The notes beneath the pieces are model-generated. The model ran no database searches, had not been told where the DNA came from, and saw only the letters and a list, made by a program, of their open reading frames with translations. The translations under genes and the position numbers were made by a program. A stretch of 64,000 nt of DNA from a virus, in the IMG/VR virus record IMGVR_UViG_3300013094_004547, positions 1 to 64,000 of that record, one strand, 5' to 3'. Below, piece after piece: positions 6,175 through 30,800 of the stretch (position 1 is the stretch's first letter; the number at the start of each line of letters is the position of its first letter).

Positions 6175-7104
6175 TCAGGCCGCTTTGGTCCCGATCAAGA
6201 AGTTGCCGGAGGCCAGCTCGGAAATTGCGGCCTCATCCAAAGCATTCAGAAACCGCCACCACGTATCACCTTGACGATCAAGCGCGATGAGATCGCGTGC
6301 TGACATGCTCAAGAACTCTTGGCGCAATGCGCCGTCCGGCAGGCGCGCGGCTAACGCTCCGAGGATCCACTGGACTGTATAGGCCGGTGTTTGGTTGACC
6401 TCGGTCGTGCATGCTTCAACGACAAAGCCCGCATCTTCAAATACACTCGTGAGACCCTCACGCGTGGCGTTGAAAAAATGAGACGGGTACCCGTGGACAG
6501 GCTGCAGGAAAGGCCAATCGATAAAGACTTTTCCGCCTGGTTTCAGCATACGCCGCATTTCTGACACGACTTGCCAGGGCTTTCGGGTGTGTTCAAGAAC
6601 TGCAAAGCATCCGATGCCATCGAGGGCGCTGTCTCTGATAGGATACAAGCAGTTTGGTTCGACGATCAAATCCGCAGATCGGGACTTGTAAACTTCAACA
6701 TATAAGCAATTGTCGAACGTGCGCTTGCGATATCCGCACCCCAGGTCGAGATATAGTTTGCCCGGGTTCAGCGCCAATTCGTGTTCCCAGGAGCTATACG
6801 CATCATTTGCGCTTTCGCAGGCATAATCGCTTAATTCATGATAGCTCTCTGAAGTTACGATGGGAAATTTTGCGCTGGGGTGATTATCGTAGGGTGCAAT
6901 CAACAATGACCGAAACCGGTAGTATTTATTCTGACGGTCGGACGGATACCCCACATACTGCCGTCTATCTTCTGTTCGGCCGTGCAGTTCAAAATGCGCG
7001 CGAGCCGAAAAACCAGCTTCAGCGACATCCGGATTAGCGGCAAGATAACCTGCTGCGCTGAAATTTTCTTCCGTCGGAATTTCCGTTTCTTGCACTGTGG
7101 TCAT
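6175..7104 (-). CDS. SAM-dependent class I methyltransferase
   Basis: 309 residues from the ATG at 7104. The N-terminal ~50 residues carry a YLAANPDVAEAGFSARAHFE motif seen beside glycan-related domains. The methyltransferase fold follows: motif I LYLDLGCGYRKR, an acidic strand end LIVEPN, FAVLEHTRKPW as the post-II helix region and LKPGGKVFIDWP as motif III. Similar enzymes act on sugars, lipids or other small molecules; the substrate is not predictable here. The gene is visibly AT-richer than its neighbours, suggesting recent acquisition. Confidence 0.8.
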   Translation of the reverse strand: MTTVQETEIPTEENFSAAGYLAANPDVAEAGFSARAHFELHGRTEDRRQYVGYPSDRQNKYYRFRSLLIAPYDNHPSAKFPIVTSESYHELSDYACESANDAYSSWEHELALNPGKLYLDLGCGYRKRTFDNCLYVEVYKSRSADLIVEPNCLYPIRDSALDGIGCFAVLEHTRKPWQVVSEMRRMLKPGGKVFIDWPFLQPVHGYPSHFFNATREGLTSVFEDAGFVVEACTTEVNQTPAYTVQWILGALAARLPDGALRQEFLSMSARDLIALDRQGDTWWRFLNALDEAAISELASGNFLIGTKAA

Positions 7105-12761: not shown

Positions 12762-15353
12762 CTAGTGGCGCGTGGGGCCTTGCGGCATCAGCGTGAGCCG
12801 CATCGTGCCGGCGAGGGTGCGCTGTCCTAAGCGCCGGCCTTGGAGGGTGAGGGTGACGGTCCGGATGCCCCGGAGCTGCAGGGCTCCCGCGTAGGGATCC
12901 CCGGCCTGGAAGGCGGCGGTGAGCGCGGCCTGCGCGGCGAGTTGCGCCGCGGCCACGCCGCTGATGGTGGCCGCCGCGGTTTGGTCGAGCTGCGCCGTGA
13001 AGGCGAGGCTCGGCCCGGACACGCCGGTCGTCGCGGCAGCAAAGGTGGGGTCGACGGGCAGGTTCAGCGTGCCCGTGACGATCAGGCCGCCGCTCGCCAG
13101 CACCCGGGTCTGGGCCTGGAAGGTCGTCCCGGCCACGGCGTTCAGGACCGCGTCGGCGCTCTGGCTCGCCGCCCCGGCCAGCGCGATCGCCGCGTTCGCC
13201 CCGAGCGCGCCGGACGCCTGTTCGCCAACTGAGGCCGCGAGGGCCGCCAGGGCGGCCTGCCCGCTCTGCGCGGCGGCCGCCTGCAGCGCCGACGCCGCGA
13301 GCACGACCGCAGAGGCGAAGGATTGCCCACCAACGCTGGCGCCCGCGCCAAGGGCCTCGCCGAGCGCCGCGGCCGCGACCGCCACGGCCTGCACCTGCGC
13401 GCCCTGGCCTTCGGCTTGGCCCACCGCCACCGCGCCGGCGTAAAGGCCCGCCGCCGCACCCGAGAGACCGAGCGCCGCGGGCAGCGGAGCGGATGCGCTC
13501 GCCTGGCCCGTCCCGGCCGCGGCCGCGAGCACCTGGGCGGTCAGCGCGATCGCCGCCGCGTAGGCCTGCGCGCCACCGGTGCCGGCGCCGGTGCCCAGGG
13601 CCTCGCCGAGCGCCGTGGCGGCGATCATCAGGGCCTGCGACCGGGCGGCGAGCGCGTCGGCCTGCGCCAGACCCACGGCGCCAGCGTAGGAGCCGGTGGC
13701 CGCGCCGGACTGGCCCGCCACCGCCGGCAGGGCGAGCGCAGCCGCGGCCGCGGCCGTCCCAGATGCCGCGGCGAGCGCCTGGCCCGCGAGGATGACCGCC
13801 GCGGCATAGGCCTGCGTGCCGCCCGGGCTTGCGGACGACCCGACGGCCTTCGCCAGCGCCGCGGCGGCGGCTAGGATCGCGGAGCTGCCGGCCGACTGGG
13901 CCAGCGCGTGGGTGAGACCCATCGGCACCTGCGCGGCGGTCTGTGCGGCGCTTGATGCCGCGGGCACGGTGGCCAGGTTCGCGGCGCCAGTCGTCGCGGT
14001 CGTAGCGGAGCCCGACGCCGTAGTTACGGTGGCGAGGTTCGTCGCACCGGTCGTCACTGCCTGCCCGGCCGATGTCGCGACCGCCGAGGCGGCGAGCGCC
14101 ATGGCCGAGGCGTAGGCCGCCCCGCCCGTGCCGGACGCGGCGGCGAGCGCCATCATCAGCGCGGCGCCCTGCGCGGCCGTGAGCGCACCGGTGTCGGTCA
14201 GGCCGGCGCCCTGAGCCAGCGCGAGCGCCGAGGCCGCGGTCAGGCCGCCCGATGCCGCCTCACCTGCGAGCGCCGCGAGCGTGAGCGTGGTCGATGCCGC
14301 GACCTTCGCCGAGCCCGTCAGGCCCGCGATCTCGGCGAGCGCCGCCGTGGCCGCCACGCGGACGGAGGGGGAACTGGCGAGCACGGCCGCCGCAGCAAGC
14401 GGGATCTGTGCGCCCGCCACGGCTGCGCCCGACGCCGTCGCCGAGCCGATAGCTGCGAGGGAGGCCGCGCTCACCCCGGAGAGAAGCGCCGCGTTCAAAT
14501 GGGCCGGGGTGGCGGCGAGCGCGATGCTGGAGGCGTAGACCGCCCCGCCCGTCGAAACGGTCGGGGCGGCGGCCTTGTATGGGTTGTCCGAGCTGATTTT
14601 CGCTTGCGTGCCCTGCCGCCAGTGCAGGATGCTCTCAAGCTGAAATTTCTCATCGGCCGTCAGAACTCGGTCCACGACGCCGATGGCGCCGGCCGAACAC
14701 TTGGCCGCGTTGCAGTAGTTGTTGATCGTGTAGAAGACGCGGCCGCCCGTCGATCCGATCGAGGATTTCGTGCCGGTGCCGCTCGCCTCGACCACGCCGT
14801 TGACGCGCAGCTCGACCGCCACGCTGCCGGCCGTCGTATCGAGGGTCAGGATCGCGAGGCTCGGCCCCGCCGTGACGTCGCTCGTCCCGTGATAGCTGCC
14901 GGAGCCGCCCGCCCGGTCGGTGTACCACCAGTGCGGGCCGTCGTTGTTCCAACCGAACAGGTTCTCGACGCCGTCGCCGCCCTGGCCCCAGGACAGCAGG
15001 ACCGAGTTGCCGCCGCTGTCGGGGGCGGCCTGGATGAGCGCGAAGATCGTCACGTCGCTCTGGCCGGTGGGCAGGCCTGAGACGTTCGAGAGATCGAGAA
15101 ACTGCCCGCCATTCGTGACGACCGCGGGATTGCCGTTGAGGCCGGCCGTCGAATAGCTCGGCTGGTTTCCGGCGACCGGCATCGAGGCGACGACGGGCGC
15201 GCCGCCGGGGCGCGCACCGCCGGCGACGGACTCGTCGCTCCACTGCGAGATCGAGCCGGCCGATTGCGTGATGGTGGATGCGTCGAACGGATCGTAGAAC
15301 GCCGACAGGTCCGCCCCGAGGAGATCGCAGACCGTCTTGAGCCGCGCGCCCAT
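12762..15353 (-). CDS. Giant tail-fibre protein with N-terminal lectin-like domain and Ala-rich repeats
   Basis: 863 residues. Residues ~1-245 look like a LamG/concanavalin-type carbohydrate-binding domain (FYDPFDASTITQ, QFLDLSNVSGLP, and the terminal DRVLTADEKFQLESILHWRQG typical of such domains). From ~250 onward the protein is almost entirely Ala/Gly/Ser/Thr, with an 82-residue tandem unit (see repeat entry), ending in a beta-rich tail. It probably forms an extended fibre that positions a host-binding head. Several long antisense frames here are composition artefacts of the Ala-rich code. Confidence 0.8.
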   Translation of the reverse strand: MGARLKTVCDLLGADLSAFYDPFDASTITQSAGSISQWSDESVAGGARPGGAPVVASMPVAGNQPSYSTAGLNGNPAVVTNGGQFLDLSNVSGLPTGQSDVTIFALIQAAPDSGGNSVLLSWGQGGDGVENLFGWNNDGPHWWYTDRAGGSGSYHGTSDVTAGPSLAILTLDTTAGSVAVELRVNGVVEASGTGTKSSIGSTGGRVFYTINNYCNAAKCSAGAIGVVDRVLTADEKFQLESILHWRQGTQAKISSDNPYKAAAPTVSTGGAVYASSIALAATPAHLNAALLSGVSAASLAAIGSATASGAAVAGAQIPLAAAAVLASSPSVRVAATAALAEIAGLTGSAKVAASTTLTLAALAGEAASGGLTAASALALAQGAGLTDTGALTAAQGAALMMALAAASGTGGAAYASAMALAASAVATSAGQAVTTGATNLATVTTASGSATTATTGAANLATVPAASSAAQTAAQVPMGLTHALAQSAGSSAILAAAAALAKAVGSSASPGGTQAYAAAVILAGQALAAASGTAAAAAALALPAVAGQSGAATGSYAGAVGLAQADALAARSQALMIAATALGEALGTGAGTGGAQAYAAAIALTAQVLAAAAGTGQASASAPLPAALGLSGAAAGLYAGAVAVGQAEGQGAQVQAVAVAAAALGEALGAGASVGGQSFASAVVLAASALQAAAAQSGQAALAALAASVGEQASGALGANAAIALAGAASQSADAVLNAVAGTTFQAQTRVLASGGLIVTGTLNLPVDPTFAAATTGVSGPSLAFTAQLDQTAAATISGVAAAQLAAQAALTAAFQAGDPYAGALQLRGIRTVTLTLQGRRLGQRTLAGTMRLTLMPQGPTRH
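13070..13814 (-). repeat. Tandem 246-bp (82-codon) repeats in the fibre gene
   Basis: Two well-matched units run from AYAAAVILAGQALAAASG to GGAQ and from AYAAAIALTAQVLAAAAG to GGQS, exactly 82 codons apart (for example TAGGCCTGCG at 13807 and at 13561). Each contains SYAGAVGLAQA or LYAGAVAVGQA and then ALGEALG. A third, more diverged unit follows. Confidence 0.75.
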
Positions 15354-18047: not shown

Positions 18048-18071
18048 CGGTGCCAAGCCTCATACGGCATG

Positions 18072-24277: not shown

Positions 24278-24952
24278 TCAGGCGGATAGTGCCCGGCCCG
24301 AAGCCGGCATGAACAGCGGGTGGACCGTGTCGCGGTTCTCCGCGAGCAGCTCGTCCGCTCGCCCTGCGTCGCCGAACAAGCGGTTGGACAGCGTCAGCAG
24401 CGGCATGCGGGTCGCGAAGGTGTAGGGCACGATCCGCGGCAGCGGGCGCGCCCGGGTGTTGAGGTCGCGAACCGCGGCCCCGTGCATCGCCAGGATCGAG
24501 CGCCACACGGCGGTGTTGAACCGCCCGGCCGCGAAATCCTCGGCCGGAATGAAGGCGGCGTTCACGCGCGCCAGTGCCGCGTCGATATCCTGGCGGCTCG
24601 TGAAGGCGGCGGCCGCGAGAATGCGGGTCATCTGGGCCAGAGCGAACACGGCCGCAGTCTGCGCGACACGCTGCACCGGCAGGTCAATTGCCGTGACGGC
24701 TTGCGCCTCTTGCCGAACCCGATCCATGCCGGCGAAGGTGGCGCCGGCCGTGGTCGCCGCCCGATAGCAGGCCAGCAGCGGCGGACCGAAGGTGCCGGCC
24801 TGAACCTGATCGACCGCATCGGCCGAGAGGGCGCCGCAGAGCTGACGGAGAGTCGCCCCATCCTGGCTCGATGCGTCGACGCCCGAGGCCAATAGAGCGT
24901 CGAGGACGGCCTGCAGAGCCGCGACGGCGATACGGCGCTGCGCGAAGGTCAT
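24278..24952 (-). CDS. C-terminal half of Mu gp43-like (N) protein as a separate gene
   Basis: 224 residues, helical. The end (FATRMPLLTLSNRLFGDAGR, then ENRDTVHPLFMPAS) matches the C-terminal pattern of DNA-circularisation/N proteins that carry a LysM-like baseplate interaction region. A GGAG lies upstream of the ATG and the gap to the previous stop is six bases, so this looks like two deliberate genes, not a simple frameshift. Tail-tip or baseplate role inferred from position. Confidence 0.7.
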   Translation of the reverse strand: MTFAQRRIAVAALQAVLDALLASGVDASSQDGATLRQLCGALSADAVDQVQAGTFGPPLLACYRAATTAGATFAGMDRVRQEAQAVTAIDLPVQRVAQTAAVFALAQMTRILAAAAFTSRQDIDAALARVNAAFIPAEDFAAGRFNTAVWRSILAMHGAAVRDLNTRARPLPRIVPYTFATRMPLLTLSNRLFGDAGRADELLAENRDTVHPLFMPASGRALSA

Positions 24953-24958
24953 GCAGCT

Positions 24959-25432
24959 CTAGCTCCAATCGTCGGCGGTGCCGGCAGACAGCGCGGCGGC
25001 GTTCTCCGCATCAAGCGCCGCGGCCAACGCATTGGCCTGCGTGTTGTCGGTCGAAGCGGCTGCAATCCCGCCACTGGCATCGACGAACGCCATCTCGAAG
25101 TAGGCGATGCCGCCCTCTTCCTTGCGTTCAGCTCGCGGACCGAACTCGCAGCGCATGAACATGCGCCCGAGGATCGGGAGGATGAGGCTGCCCCCGCCTT
25201 CGCGGTTGAGGGCGCGCTCCAGCGCGTCGGCCTGATTGTTGTAATCATCGCCAATCACGTAGCCCGAGACGGTGACCCGGGTGACACGCTTGCCCAGGTC
25301 CTCGTCGAGGGAGCGGTCGCCCTTCGCGAACTCATAGGTGAAGCCGCGCCGCCCGTTGGTCCGGGAGTTGGCCGCGAGCTTGAACGGCACGCCCCGGTAC
25401 GAGGCGGGGCGGAGATCGTCACGCCAGGACAT
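24959..25432 (-). CDS. DNA circularisation N-terminal-domain protein (Mu gp43-like, N half)
   Basis: 157 residues. The domain begins MSWRDDLRPASYRGVPFKLA and includes GRRGFTYEFAKGD and RVTVSGYVIGDDYNNQAD, the signature of DNA_circ_N. In Mu this domain is fused to a longer protein; here the frame stops after ~157 residues and the remainder is the next gene. Confidence 0.82.
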   Translation of the reverse strand: MSWRDDLRPASYRGVPFKLAANSRTNGRRGFTYEFAKGDRSLDEDLGKRVTRVTVSGYVIGDDYNNQADALERALNREGGGSLILPILGRMFMRCEFGPRAERKEEGGIAYFEMAFVDASGGIAAASTDNTQANALAAALDAENAAALSAGTADDWS

Positions 25433-25889: not shown

Positions 25890-28385
25890 TCAGGCCTGCG
25901 CCATGCTCATCTGCGACTTGCCGTGGGAGACCGTGGTGTCGCCGAACAGATCGCTCATGTCCGCCTTCACCTGGGTCCCAGGCGGGCCGTCTACCTTGAT
26001 GTGCAGGGTTCCGTTCTTGCTGCCCCCGGGCCCCGTCGGCTTGCCCACGGGGCTGTCGTCAGCCCGAGCCTTGCCCGCCGGCGGATCGCCCGCGTAGGCG
26101 TTCGGCCCAGCCCGATACCCCTTCGGGAACTGGAAGTGCGGGACGTCCTTGAACTTCTTCCAGTCGCCGCCCCACTCCACCGGGATCCCGGCTTCCTCGG
26201 AGGCCTGCCGCATCGCGCGGTTGATCTCCTCGTACTTCTTGCGGTCGAGGTCGCCCACCGCCGGATCGCCGTCCGCCCGCACATCGACCGCGCGGCCCTT
26301 CAGGTGCTCGCTGTCCATCGTCTTGGACCAGCCGCGGCGGACCATCTCGCGCTGGCGCTCCAACGTGCGCAGGCCCTCGTGGATGTGGAACTTGACCTTG
26401 CTGAGCTGCTGGGCCCGCTTCAGCACCTTGATCAGGTCAGCGTTCACACCCCGGCCGTCGGTCGGATCCGGGGCACCCTCGGCCTCTGGGGCCTCAGGTT
26501 CCGACGAAAGCGGGCCCGAAGATCCGGCCAGTGGGCCCACACTGGCGACGGCCCCGGCCCCTTTACCGAAACCCTGGATCTCAGCGAGGCGCTTTCTGAT
26601 CGTCCCGAAGTATCGCGTGCCGGCGGTGCCGAACCCGTCGCGCCCCACCCGCCCGGACTCCAGATAGCCGAGCGCACCGACGATGCGCCCCTGTCCTCGA
26701 CCGGCGCCCTGATTGTGGGCGTAGCCGAGGATCTCCAGCTTCTTCTCGGGCGACATCCCCCGGTAGGCGGCGCTATTGCTCTCCAGGAACTTGTGGTGCT
26801 CCAGCGTGTAGCGCTCCATGAAGCGCTCCTGCATGGCCTTGTCGCCGAGGAACTGCGCGCGCGTGGGCGGCGCTTCACCGAGCTGCCGCGCGGTCTGCGC
26901 GATCTCCCTGGGTCCGAACTGGTAGCGCCCGGAGAACCGACCGCCGGACCCGCCAACCTGCTCGTAGCGCTTGCCCTCGATGTCGGTCAGGCCCTCGCGG
27001 TAGGCACTCCACTGCGCATCGTTGATGCCCACCGCCCCCTTCAGGTCGTTGGCCTCGTAGGGGATGCCGACCGGACCCTTCTTGCCACCGCCGCGACTGT
27101 CGATCGCCCCCCTGCTACCGAACGGCCGACCGCGGATACCCTCGCCGAGATCCGGAGCGGCAGGTACGTCACGTGCCCCGCCGCCTGAACCGCCGCTGAC
27201 GCCACCGCCCGAACCGCCGCCGGACCCACCGGTCGGGCTGCCATAAGCCGGGATCGCAGAGCCGGCACCCGTGGAACCGAAGCCGCCCCAGGCCGCCTTC
27301 TGGATCAGCGACCCGCCGCCACCCGTGGAACCGCCGAAGCTCGACGGGCTGACGCTCGCGCCGCCCGGCTGCTCGCGCAGCTTACGGATCTCGTCCGTCA
27401 ACCGCTGCATCTCGGCAGCCAGCGCATCGCGCTTCTTTTGCGTTTCCGCCGCGCCGGCCTCGTCACCGTTCATGCGCTTTCGCGCGATGCTCTCGTCGAG
27501 GACGTCGAGCTGGCGCCGGATCTGATCCTGACGCTCGCGGGCCGGTGCGGCCTTCCGCTCCTGTTCCGCTCCTTCGAGAACCTTGTCGGCGCCCTCCAGC
27601 AGCGGACCCAGGGTCTTAAGCTTCAGGTTCTCCCACCGGTTGTGCATCCGGTTGAGGTTTTGCTCGAAGCGCTCGGCCGCCTCCAGAATTGACTTATCGA
27701 GCGTGCCGAGTTCGGCCTGCAGCTTCGCCACTGCCTCGCGGATCGGACCGTTCAGGCTGCTGGCCACGATCCCGATATCAGGCGTGCCGAACAACAGCAT
27801 CGACACACGGGCGCGCTTCTGGGGGTCCGGAACGCCACGCAGGCCTTCCATGGCCCGCTCGATTGCGGCCTCCATGTTCGGGGCGTTCACGAGGTCCTCG
27901 GCGAGCTTGCCGAGGTTCATGTTCTTCAACTCGCCGTAGGCCTGCCCCCAGCGCTGGCGCAGATCGACCATGTTGCCGGCGAACTGGTTGATCGCGCCCT
28001 TCATCGTCTCAGCCGAGACGCCGGCCTTGCCGCCAAGCTCCGATAAGGTTCTCAGTTCGTTGGCCGTCAGCCCGATCTGGCGGGCCATCTGGCTCAGATC
28101 GCGGGTCGAGCCCGAGAAGCCCTTCAGAGCCGTGACGACGCCGGCGACGGACAGAGCGGCCCCAAACCCGCCGAAGCCGATCTTCGATAGGATCGGCTCA
28201 AAGCCACCCAGGACTCCGCGAACCTTCGAGATCTCCTCGCGCGCGACGCCCCAGTCCTTTTTCCAGGTCGCCCCGTGCTTGGCGGTTTCATCACCGACCT
28301 GCTTCAGGCTCTTCTGGAGCTTGGACAGAGGCCCGGTGAACTGGTCCTCGACGGTGGCGACGATTTTGAGCTTGTCGTCAGCCAT
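25890..28385 (-). CDS. Tape measure protein with lysozyme-like and M15 peptidase-like domains
   Basis: 831 residues. N-terminal ~110 residues are a Mu-type tape-measure start (VEDQFTGPLSKLQKSLKQVG), followed by helical and Gly-rich regions. Near residue 480, GGRFSGRYQFGPREIAQTARQ resembles a transglycosylase/lysozyme fold. Around 655-760, FHIHEGLRTLERQREM, then SEHLKGRAVDV (SxHxxGxAxD) and PHFQF form the metal-binding motifs of M15 peptidases (zinc ligands His/Asp/His). The protein sets tail length, and the enzymatic domains would assist passage through peptidoglycan during DNA entry. Confidence 0.85.
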   Translation of the reverse strand: MADDKLKIVATVEDQFTGPLSKLQKSLKQVGDETAKHGATWKKDWGVAREEISKVRGVLGGFEPILSKIGFGGFGAALSVAGVVTALKGFSGSTRDLSQMARQIGLTANELRTLSELGGKAGVSAETMKGAINQFAGNMVDLRQRWGQAYGELKNMNLGKLAEDLVNAPNMEAAIERAMEGLRGVPDPQKRARVSMLLFGTPDIGIVASSLNGPIREAVAKLQAELGTLDKSILEAAERFEQNLNRMHNRWENLKLKTLGPLLEGADKVLEGAEQERKAAPARERQDQIRRQLDVLDESIARKRMNGDEAGAAETQKKRDALAAEMQRLTDEIRKLREQPGGASVSPSSFGGSTGGGGSLIQKAAWGGFGSTGAGSAIPAYGSPTGGSGGGSGGGVSGGSGGGARDVPAAPDLGEGIRGRPFGSRGAIDSRGGGKKGPVGIPYEANDLKGAVGINDAQWSAYREGLTDIEGKRYEQVGGSGGRFSGRYQFGPREIAQTARQLGEAPPTRAQFLGDKAMQERFMERYTLEHHKFLESNSAAYRGMSPEKKLEILGYAHNQGAGRGQGRIVGALGYLESGRVGRDGFGTAGTRYFGTIRKRLAEIQGFGKGAGAVASVGPLAGSSGPLSSEPEAPEAEGAPDPTDGRGVNADLIKVLKRAQQLSKVKFHIHEGLRTLERQREMVRRGWSKTMDSEHLKGRAVDVRADGDPAVGDLDRKKYEEINRAMRQASEEAGIPVEWGGDWKKFKDVPHFQFPKGYRAGPNAYAGDPPAGKARADDSPVGKPTGPGGSKNGTLHIKVDGPPGTQVKADMSDLFGDTTVSHGKSQMSMAQA

Positions 28386-28850
28386 CCTCGTCCTCGCGTG
28401 GAGCGGGGCGCGGCATCAGCGCCAGGGTGCGGGCCATCAGGTGGGTCACGGTCGCCGCCGGCATCGCGGCCGGCGGATCGCGGAACGGCCACGCGTGGAA
28501 CGCGAGGCCTAGGCGGAGGCAGTCGTCGACGGCATCGGCGGCAGGGCCGCCCACACGAAAAAACGGCTGAGGATGGTCCCCAGCTGCAGGATGTCACGGG
28601 CGCCGATCTTCATCAGCACCGGCGGCGGCGTTGCGGACAGGCTGGCGACAAGCGGGAAGAACTGGTCTGCCGACAGCCCTTCCAGGAGGCCGAATTTGAG
28701 GACCTCCTCGCCGGTGGGCTCGCGCAGGATCAGCACCTGCAGCGTGTCCTGGCCGACGACGATGGGCTTGGCGAGCGGATGCTCCAACGGCCAGGAGATC
28801 TCGCGCGGGTCGCGGGCGGGGGGCACGGTATCCGTCATCGTAGCGCTCAC
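28378..28850 (-). CDS. Frameshift product: long tail assembly chaperone (G-T type)
   Basis: Predicted 157-residue fusion made by a -1 slip at the T TTT TTC heptamer. The first 98 residues are shared with the short chaperone; then 59 residues in the -1 frame (RVGGPAADAVDDCLRLGLAF onward) end at TGA 28380-28378, eight bases past the tape-measure start. The extension has no start codon of its own near the beginning. Contractile and non-contractile tail phages commonly use this arrangement before the tape measure; the long form recruits tape measure and tube subunits. Confidence 0.75.
28509..28850 (-). CDS. Short tail assembly chaperone (phage E/TAC family)
   Basis: 113 residues. LEHPLAKPIVVGQDTLQVLI followed by REPTGEEVLKFGLLEGL is the pattern of the tail assembly chaperone family found between tube and tape-measure genes. 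Its ATG/TTG region overlaps the tube gene end by four bases. It carries the slippery site near codon 97. Confidence 0.85.
   Translation of the reverse strand: MSATMTDTVPPARDPREISWPLEHPLAKPIVVGQDTLQVLILREPTGEEVLKFGLLEGLSADQFFPLVASLSATPPPVLMKIGARDILQLGTILSRFFVWAALPPMPSTTASA
28557..28563 (-). promoter_or_regulatory. Slippery heptamer for programmed -1 frameshift
   Basis: Minus strand reads CGT TTT TTC in frame, giving the X XXY YYZ heptamer T TTT TTC over codons 96-98. A -1 slip joins the frame that runs to the tape-measure start. Confidence 0.75.
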
Positions 28851-29206
28851 AGCTCGTCACAGGAGAGGCCGCGCCACTCGACGGCGACCTTGCCGTCGGC
28901 GGTGCCGATCTCGTGCGCGCCAGCCGACCACGCGCTGGACAGGACGTAGTTCTTGCCGTTGGCGAGCTGGGCGGTGACCGTGATGTCCGTCATCGCGTCG
29001 AGTTCCGCGACGGAGAGGCCATCGGTCGTCGACAGGTCGGCCTTGATGAAGGGCACGAGCTGGGTCTCGATGAAGCCGTGGGGGCCGTCCTGGCCAGCCA
29101 CGGACTCGCGCTTGATCCGCGAGGGCGAGACGATCAGGCCGCCGCGCAGATCGTACATCTTGCCGGCCGCTGTCAGGTAGGCGGTACCGGCGAACCTCTG
29201 ACCCAT
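28847..29206 (-). CDS. Tail tube protein
   Basis: 119 residues, Mu-type tube family: GTAYLTAAGKMYDLRGGLIV at the start and DGLSVAELDAMTDITVTAQL in the middle. Directly downstream of the sheath gene across an intrinsic terminator and upstream of the chaperones, the usual order. Confidence 0.88.
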   Translation of the reverse strand: MGQRFAGTAYLTAAGKMYDLRGGLIVSPSRIKRESVAGQDGPHGFIETQLVPFIKADLSTTDGLSVAELDAMTDITVTAQLANGKNYVLSSAWSAGAHEIGTADGKVAVEWRGLSCDEL

Positions 29207-29273: not shown

Positions 29274-30800
29274 TCAGGTGCCGGAGGCGCTGAGCGGGAA
29301 TTGGAGGCGGAACTGTGCCTTGATGTTCAGTCTCCGCAGCTGGTTCACCACGTCCGGCGGATCCAGGATCTCGACCGTATTCGGCTCGGTGTTCGAGCGG
29401 GTGACCGACAGGTTGGCAATGTAGAGATCAGCGTTCTCGACGAGCCCGTCCGTCTCCATATCCCGATACTCGGAGACCATCTCGGCCTTGATCATCAGTG
29501 GCGTGACGATCGGCTTGCCGGCGCCGAACTTCGTCCCGTCGTTGGCGAGCGCACACCGCGGATACTTGCTCGTCAGTGCCTGCCGAACGCGGGTGTAGCG
29601 CTCATCGAGTGTGGCGAGCGTCGTCACCAACTCGTAGGCGTTGTCGGCCTGGCCGTAGCTGTTCTTCTGGTAGTTCGTCTGCTCGCGCAGGATGATCGGT
29701 TGGTTGGTCGAGCCGCCGTAGACGTCGGTCCCCTGGATCGCGATGCCGACCTGCGCGAGCGAATTCAGCTGCGCCTTGTTCCAGCGGTAGTCCGCCGGCG
29801 CCGGCAGCACGCCGATCAGCGGCAGCGTCTGGAGGGGCTGCGCCGCGTAGGCGTTGATCGAGAAGGCCGCGGCAGCGGTGTAGGCGGCGGTCCACTCCCA
29901 GCTTGGGGACGGCGACTGCTGCTCGAAGCCCATCGTGGAGATCAGCGCCGAGTTGTTCGACTGACCCCACAAGAAGGTTTCGGCGTAGAGGCCGCGGCGC
30001 GCCGAGAAGATCTGACCGTAGCTCTGGCGGTACGGGCCCCAGCGCCCGGAGTCGGTGAAGCCGTATTCCTGGTCCCACACCGCGTATGAGCCGCTGTCGT
30101 GGAAGCCGAGGCCGACGAACTTGAACGGCCGGTCGAGGAGCGCCGCGATCGCGTTGGTGAAGTCCGGCGTCCCGGTCCCGCCAGCGAGCAGATTATTGAT
30201 CGGGTATGTCAGCGCGAGACCGGCCGGCAGGGCTTCCCCGCCGTAGGTGCCGAGGTAGCTGTCGAGTACCGTCACGCTGTTGCCGGTCAGCCCCTTCCAC
30301 TTGGCCGTGAGCGTCACGACGGCGCCAGCGGCCGATGCGGTAACCGGCAGGTCCGGGGTCGCGGCGATCGCCGCGGCGATCTTAGCGGCCACCGTGGCGG
30401 TGGTGTCGGCCGAGACGATCGCGACCTGCAGCTTCTGGCCGGCGATGTAGAGCGGGAGGGTGCCCGCCACTGACGGCGCAGCGGTGACCGTGATCGTGCC
30501 GGTGGCTGCGACGCCGGCGGCCGGCTCTGAGATCGGCAGGCAGATGATCGGCACGCTGGTGACGCCCTTGAAGGCCGTCTTGAACATGCGCGCGAGCATG
30601 GAGCCGGCGCCGAACTGCGCGTCGGCGTCGTTGTTCGTGCCGCAGGCCACCGCGACGTTCGGCTTGGCGGCAGCTCCGGTGAGGAGATGCCCGACGAGCA
30701 GGATCCACTTTGGCGAGACCGGGGTACCGGCCTGCGAGGGATCCATCTGAACGTTGGGGCCCGGGAGCTTGTAGTTGTCCGGGATCGTGGTGATGCCCAT
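29274..30800 (-). CDS. Contractile tail sheath protein (Mu gpL-like)
   Basis: 508 residues. Recognisable sheath features: the N-terminal LPGPNVQMDPSQAG, a beta insertion (~residues 90-220), then FVGLGFHDSGSYAVWDQEYG and a C-terminal sheet (VENADLYIANLSVTRSNTEP followed by VEILDPPDVVNQLRRLN). Polymerises around the tube and contracts on infection; its presence shows a myovirus-type tail. Confidence 0.92.
   Translation of the reverse strand: MGITTIPDNYKLPGPNVQMDPSQAGTPVSPKWILLVGHLLTGAAAKPNVAVACGTNNDADAQFGAGSMLARMFKTAFKGVTSVPIICLPISEPAAGVAATGTITVTAAPSVAGTLPLYIAGQKLQVAIVSADTTATVAAKIAAAIAATPDLPVTASAAGAVVTLTAKWKGLTGNSVTVLDSYLGTYGGEALPAGLALTYPINNLLAGGTGTPDFTNAIAALLDRPFKFVGLGFHDSGSYAVWDQEYGFTDSGRWGPYRQSYGQIFSARRGLYAETFLWGQSNNSALISTMGFEQQSPSPSWEWTAAYTAAAAFSINAYAAQPLQTLPLIGVLPAPADYRWNKAQLNSLAQVGIAIQGTDVYGGSTNQPIILREQTNYQKNSYGQADNAYELVTTLATLDERYTRVRQALTSKYPRCALANDGTKFGAGKPIVTPLMIKAEMVSEYRDMETDGLVENADLYIANLSVTRSNTEPNTVEILDPPDVVNQLRRLNIKAQFRLQFPLSASGT

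Follow-up and report, generated by a model that had tools for sequence, protein, structure and literature searches.

Organization of the tail gene locus

The window, by which we mean the whole stretch of 64,000 nucleotides analysed here, is a portion of a 74,780-base virus record (GC 67%). Its relatives include IMG/VR contigs and a prophage of Methylobacterium sp. UNC378MF. Positions 12762–40012 of the minus strand hold a mosaic virion module, in which a lambda-type terminase, portal and capsid E protein are joined to a Mu-type contractile tail represented by gp48, sheath, baseplate J and hub genes. In Acetobacter phage phiAP1, too, a Mu-related sheath occurs together with a capsid E protein.

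All elements of the locus described below lie on the minus strand, where the gene order is sheath, tube, chaperone and tape measure. The contractile tail sheath (508 aa, 29274–30800) matched phrog_165 with E=2.6e-136 and is 32–39% identical to its Mu and SfV relatives. The tail tube protein (119 aa, 28847–29206) matched the tail tube family phrog_185 (E=1.4e-25), and the tape-measure protein (831 aa, 25890–28385, ATG at 28385) matched phrog_8462 and further tape-measure families. The C-terminus of the latter (residues about 646–758) is a peptidase M15/endolysin-like domain (Peptidase_M15_4, E=7e-12 at residues 688–752), and hence a cell-wall enzyme is fused to the tape measure. A conserved terminator-like sequence, GGCGGGTTTTTCTTT, is found near position 2600 in L001–L005 and L007–L013 between the sheath and tube genes, directly upstream of the tube gene, and could reduce or separate expression within the tail operon.

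The Mu N-like DNA circularisation/baseplate hub protein (phrog_184, 411 positions) is encoded at 24278–25432 by two open reading frames of 157 and 224 aa, between which about 44 positions of the profile are absent. A single in-frame TAG divides them in the window and in ten relatives of the set L014, L016–L018, L020, L021 and L023–L027. Readthrough of this stop codon was considered and rejected, as the second reading frame of L023 lies in another frame and has its own ATG; the arrangement is a stable gene split.

The frame-0 tail assembly chaperone (gpG-like, 109 aa) is located at 28509–28838 with its TAG stop at 28511–28509, between the tube and tape-measure genes as expected for a G/GT-type pair. 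It matched Pfam PF10109 Phage_TAC_7 (E/gp41/gp14) over nearly its full length (E=2e-5, 24.9 bits against a cut-off of 25), the near-identical copy in L014 scored 25.3 bits and thus above the cut-off, and phrog_166 was matched with E=6e-9. We therefore assigned the protein to the Phage_TAC_7 family. Two start codons come into question. GTG 28850 is not conserved, since seven relatives (L007, L009–L011, L013, L023 and L031) have only an ATG, right behind the stop of the tube gene, whereas ATG 28838 aligns with the start codon in the relatives. Judged by this conservation, translation most likely starts at ATG 28838.

A slippery heptamer followed by an open −1 frame

Direct reading of the chaperone gene confirmed an in-frame T TTT TTC heptamer in the X_XXY_YYZ register at 28563–28557, where frame 0 is divided as CGT TTT TTC, 15 codons upstream of the frame-0 stop. 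With the start at ATG 28838 the heptamer occupies codons 92–94, and each product would be four residues shorter than with GTG 28850, at 109 in place of 113 and at 153 in place of 157. The original prediction had placed the heptamer at codons 96–98, which holds for the GTG 28850 start it assumed but not for the conserved ATG, and its fusion of 157 residues has to be shortened to 153 for the same reason. The predicted peptide spanning the fusion junction is SRFFRVGGPAADAVDDCLR.

From position 28557 the −1 frame is open for 59 codons up to the TGA at 28380–28378 (28378–28557, the gpT-like part) and overlaps the tape-measure start by eight bases, exactly as had been proposed. TTTTTTC occurs six times on both strands of the window compared with 1.5 times in shuffled sequences, and none of 100 shuffles reached six. 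Given this over-representation, the heptamer by itself counts for little; its register, its position, the extension and the conservation are what make the case strong. The further copies are located at 6472 (−), 18071 (−), 49169 (+), 50032 (−) and 62242 (+), and the one at 18071 resembles the T run of a terminator.

A candidate stimulatory hairpin, GGCGGC-CCT-GCCGCC, was found by folding at 28537–28551 and begins 5 nt 3′ of the heptamer, a usual distance of a stimulator from its slip site. The 22-nt window covering it has a folding energy of −12.0 kcal/mol and ranks among the lowest 0.7% of windows on the same strand. Larger folds downstream of the heptamer were not significantly more stable than those of shuffled sequences (63 bases, z −0.15; 117 bases, z −1.67). 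Among close relatives (alignment A2) the stem letters are invariant and the loop varies, so that covariation cannot test the stem. In distant homologues an equally simple hairpin was not evident. The GC hairpin may increase the slip rate.

Conservation and selection in Methylobacterium-related loci

The comparison included 14 close relatives (L001–L007, L009–L011, L013, L014, L023 and L031; L008 and L012 duplicate L007 and L010, respectively). The slippery heptamer is kept in each of them, within the sequence CGTTTTTTCG. A near-invariant stretch reaches from the end of the codon before the heptamer through the first arm of the hairpin, whereas the gene upstream varies freely. All 12 relatives that are complete to the gene end carry the extension, with 59 codons and about two more in L023.

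In the stretch read in both frames, close relatives gave an omega of 0.25 for the −1 frame (95% interval 0.07–0.61) and of 1.3 for frame 0, indicating that the −1 frame is the one under selection there. Past the frame-0 stop, omega was 0.69 (0.39–1.18) for the −1 frame, against 1.1 to 1.3 for the remaining frames; with an interval reaching 1.18, this value alone would not be conclusive. Overall, frames other than −1 ranged from 1.06 to 1.8. The shifted-frame extension is thus conserved as protein, as in a G/GT-type pair. For a −2 shift of the Mu type the extension would lie in the −2/+1 frame, but omega in the +1 frame was about 1 or higher.

The in-register T TTT TTC recurs in the distant Methylobacterium homologues L028, L032, L035 and L036 (31–57% identity), and the weak matches L033 and L034 have it as well. 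The homologue on a Methylobacterium radiotolerans plasmid (L028) is 49% identical over 90% of the fusion. Its heptamer is identical and its −1 extension clearly similar and alignable, while its frame-0 tail, NAAAA*, is shorter than the 15-codon tail of the window and unrelated to it. Loci of two further genomes (G094 and G163) show the same picture of identical heptamer, similar extension and differing, shorter frame-0 tail. Across the extension alignment (A3), identity to the window was 31–83%. Loss of the extension in relatives had been named beforehand as an outcome that would speak against frameshifting; instead, it was conserved in the 12 complete close relatives and in the distant homologues.

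Phage_TAC_7 loci across the class

We searched PF10109 in 289 genomes of the class, centred on the Methylobacterium genome behind L014 (G001). Of 27 complete loci, 26 had an X_XXY_YYZ heptamer that sits in the slip register no more than 60 bases ahead of the frame-0 stop. This number includes the L014 locus itself (as L061) and some near-duplicates, so that slightly fewer of the loci are independent. Upstream parts of the same genes gave an expectation of 0.057 in-register heptamers per locus, and in the other two registers the last 60 bases contained heptamers in 6 and 2 of the 27 loci. A T6 run is present in 15 of the 26 heptamer-bearing loci; other heptamers, namely GGGTTTT, GGGAAAG and CCCTTTG, permit a tandem slip without a long run. 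The sole exception, L070, has GTTTTTA and GTTTTTATG near the gene end and no in-register X_XXY_YYZ heptamer; it may rely on a weaker or different slip.

Extensions in the class measure about 47–62 codons, with one longer case, and several of them match PF06528 Phage_P2_GpE. The window extension gave no match to PHROGs and Pfam models. PF06528 matched neither this extension nor others of the window type, and a profile comparison of window-type with GpE-like extensions (hhalign) returned a probability of 0.4%, which leaves homology unsupported. The window extension may be GpE-like but highly diverged, or it may have taken the place of a GpE-like domain without being related to it. It is conceivable, if rather doubtful, that the Methylobacterium phages swapped the usual GpE-like extension for an unrelated small domain while keeping the chaperone and the slip site, the latter serving as a stable junction where one tube-recruiting domain can be exchanged for another.

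Comparison with named phages

A tblastn search with the fusion against the phages collection gave no match; named relatives were found via the sheath. Enterobacteria phage SfV, whose tail is contractile, and Pseudomonas phage DVM-2008 have tails of the Mu type and share with the window the order sheath, tube, chaperone (orf13 in both), gap and tape measure. In both, the heptamer is likewise an in-register T TTT TTC and leads into a −1 extension of 53–54 codons that has no evident similarity to the extension of the window. The distance from the heptamer to the frame-0 stop is 3 codons in SfV, 10 in DVM-2008 and 15 in the window. The corresponding sequences are TTTTTTG in Bordetella phage PY223 and TTTTTTT in phiAP1. 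In the SfV, DVM-2008 and PY223 records only the frame-0 gene is annotated, leaving a gap of approximately 120–140 bases before the tape measure.

Among the known systems, E/E+E′ of P2 uses the same chaperone family and the same −1 direction as the window, with a PF06528 extension in place of the one found here. G/GT of lambda differs from the window both in its protein family and in its heptamer, G GGA AAG. For Mu a −2 shift has been reported; consistent with this, no in-register −1 heptamer was found over the final 100 bases of its gp41 gene, unlike in the window gene. For PaMx73, a Mu-like Pseudomonas phage of the D3112 group, T TTT TTC with a −1 shift has been reported (PMC4378225). No frameshift site was reported for KS10 (PMC2628397), and the G/GT design is therefore not universal.

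Proposed mechanism and alternative explanations

We consider it very probable (roughly 0.94, judged from sequence) that the locus encodes a G/GT-type tail assembly chaperone pair produced by programmed −1 frameshifting. The G-T design originally proposed is supported by the gene order, the Phage_TAC_7 match, the in-register heptamer, an extension of near-constant length on which selection acts in the −1 frame, and the lack of a conserved start for the extension. For the slip, for how often it would occur and for what each of the two parts would bind, lambda and P2 serve as models; the lambda G/GT mechanism is reviewed in PMC5009743. By analogy, the majority of ribosomes would read frame 0 and yield the 109-residue chaperone. 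In a minority, the tRNA-Phe molecules paired with TTT (P site) and TTC (A site) would slip back by one base on T TTT TTC and re-pair, and these ribosomes would proceed in the −1 frame to give the fusion of 153 residues. The N-terminal part, common to both products, would coat the tape-measure protein, with many copies of the short product bound, and the extension of the long product would recruit the tail tube protein; neither product would be expected in the finished virion. The slip rate at the heptamer would set a fixed ratio of short to long product. This rate could be low in the window, because U-run heptamers (U_UUU_UUA and U_UUU_UUU) shift much less than A_AAA_AAG according to E. coli work cited in PMC5009743.

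A different explanation is that a small gene of its own occupies the −1 frame, translationally coupled to the upstream gene and begun at its own start codon without any frameshift. Candidate starts do exist, namely GTG 28554, one codon past the heptamer, and ATG codons at 28464, 28437 and 28416. However, no Shine-Dalgarno sequence was found before GTG 28554 (CAGCCGTTTTTTCGT), and this codon is missing from L028, L031, L035 and L036. ATG 28464 is missing from L010, L013 and L023, and the later starts lose the conserved first half of the extension. This agrees with the earlier remark that the second frame has no good start of its own. Moreover, a separate gene gives no reason for the invariant heptamer, and we regard this explanation as very unlikely.

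Slippage of the RNA polymerase on the T6 run would yield a mixture of mRNAs for ordinary translation and lead to the same −1 frame after addition of one base, and a homopolymer run is indeed present. Runs that cause transcriptional slippage in bacteria are usually longer than T6, though, and the class relatives with GGGTTTT, GGGAAAG or CCCTTTG have no long run at all. What is conserved is the codon register and not merely a run, so that transcriptional slippage seems even less likely than a separate gene. Finally, the T run and the open −1 frame might be functionless products of chance, given that TTTTTTC is over-represented in the window and that GC-rich DNA often has long open frames. The invariance of the heptamer in relatives, the selection on the −1 frame and the recurrence throughout the class oppose this, the count of 26 in 27 loci already contradicting it, and chance is the least credible of these explanations. 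Programmed −1 frameshifting remains the preferred reading of the locus.

Significance

Frameshifted tail chaperones are a standard arrangement in tailed phages, and the case in the window is clear and strongly conserved. Nearly all Phage_TAC_7 loci sampled in the class retain an in-register −1 heptamer. An annotation that ends at the frame-0 stop misses the long product, as in SfV, DVM-2008, PY223 and the gene table of plasmid pNYY1_7. For Methylobacterium phages, the locus described here adds a well-supported case of tail-chaperone frameshifting, apparently unannotated so far.
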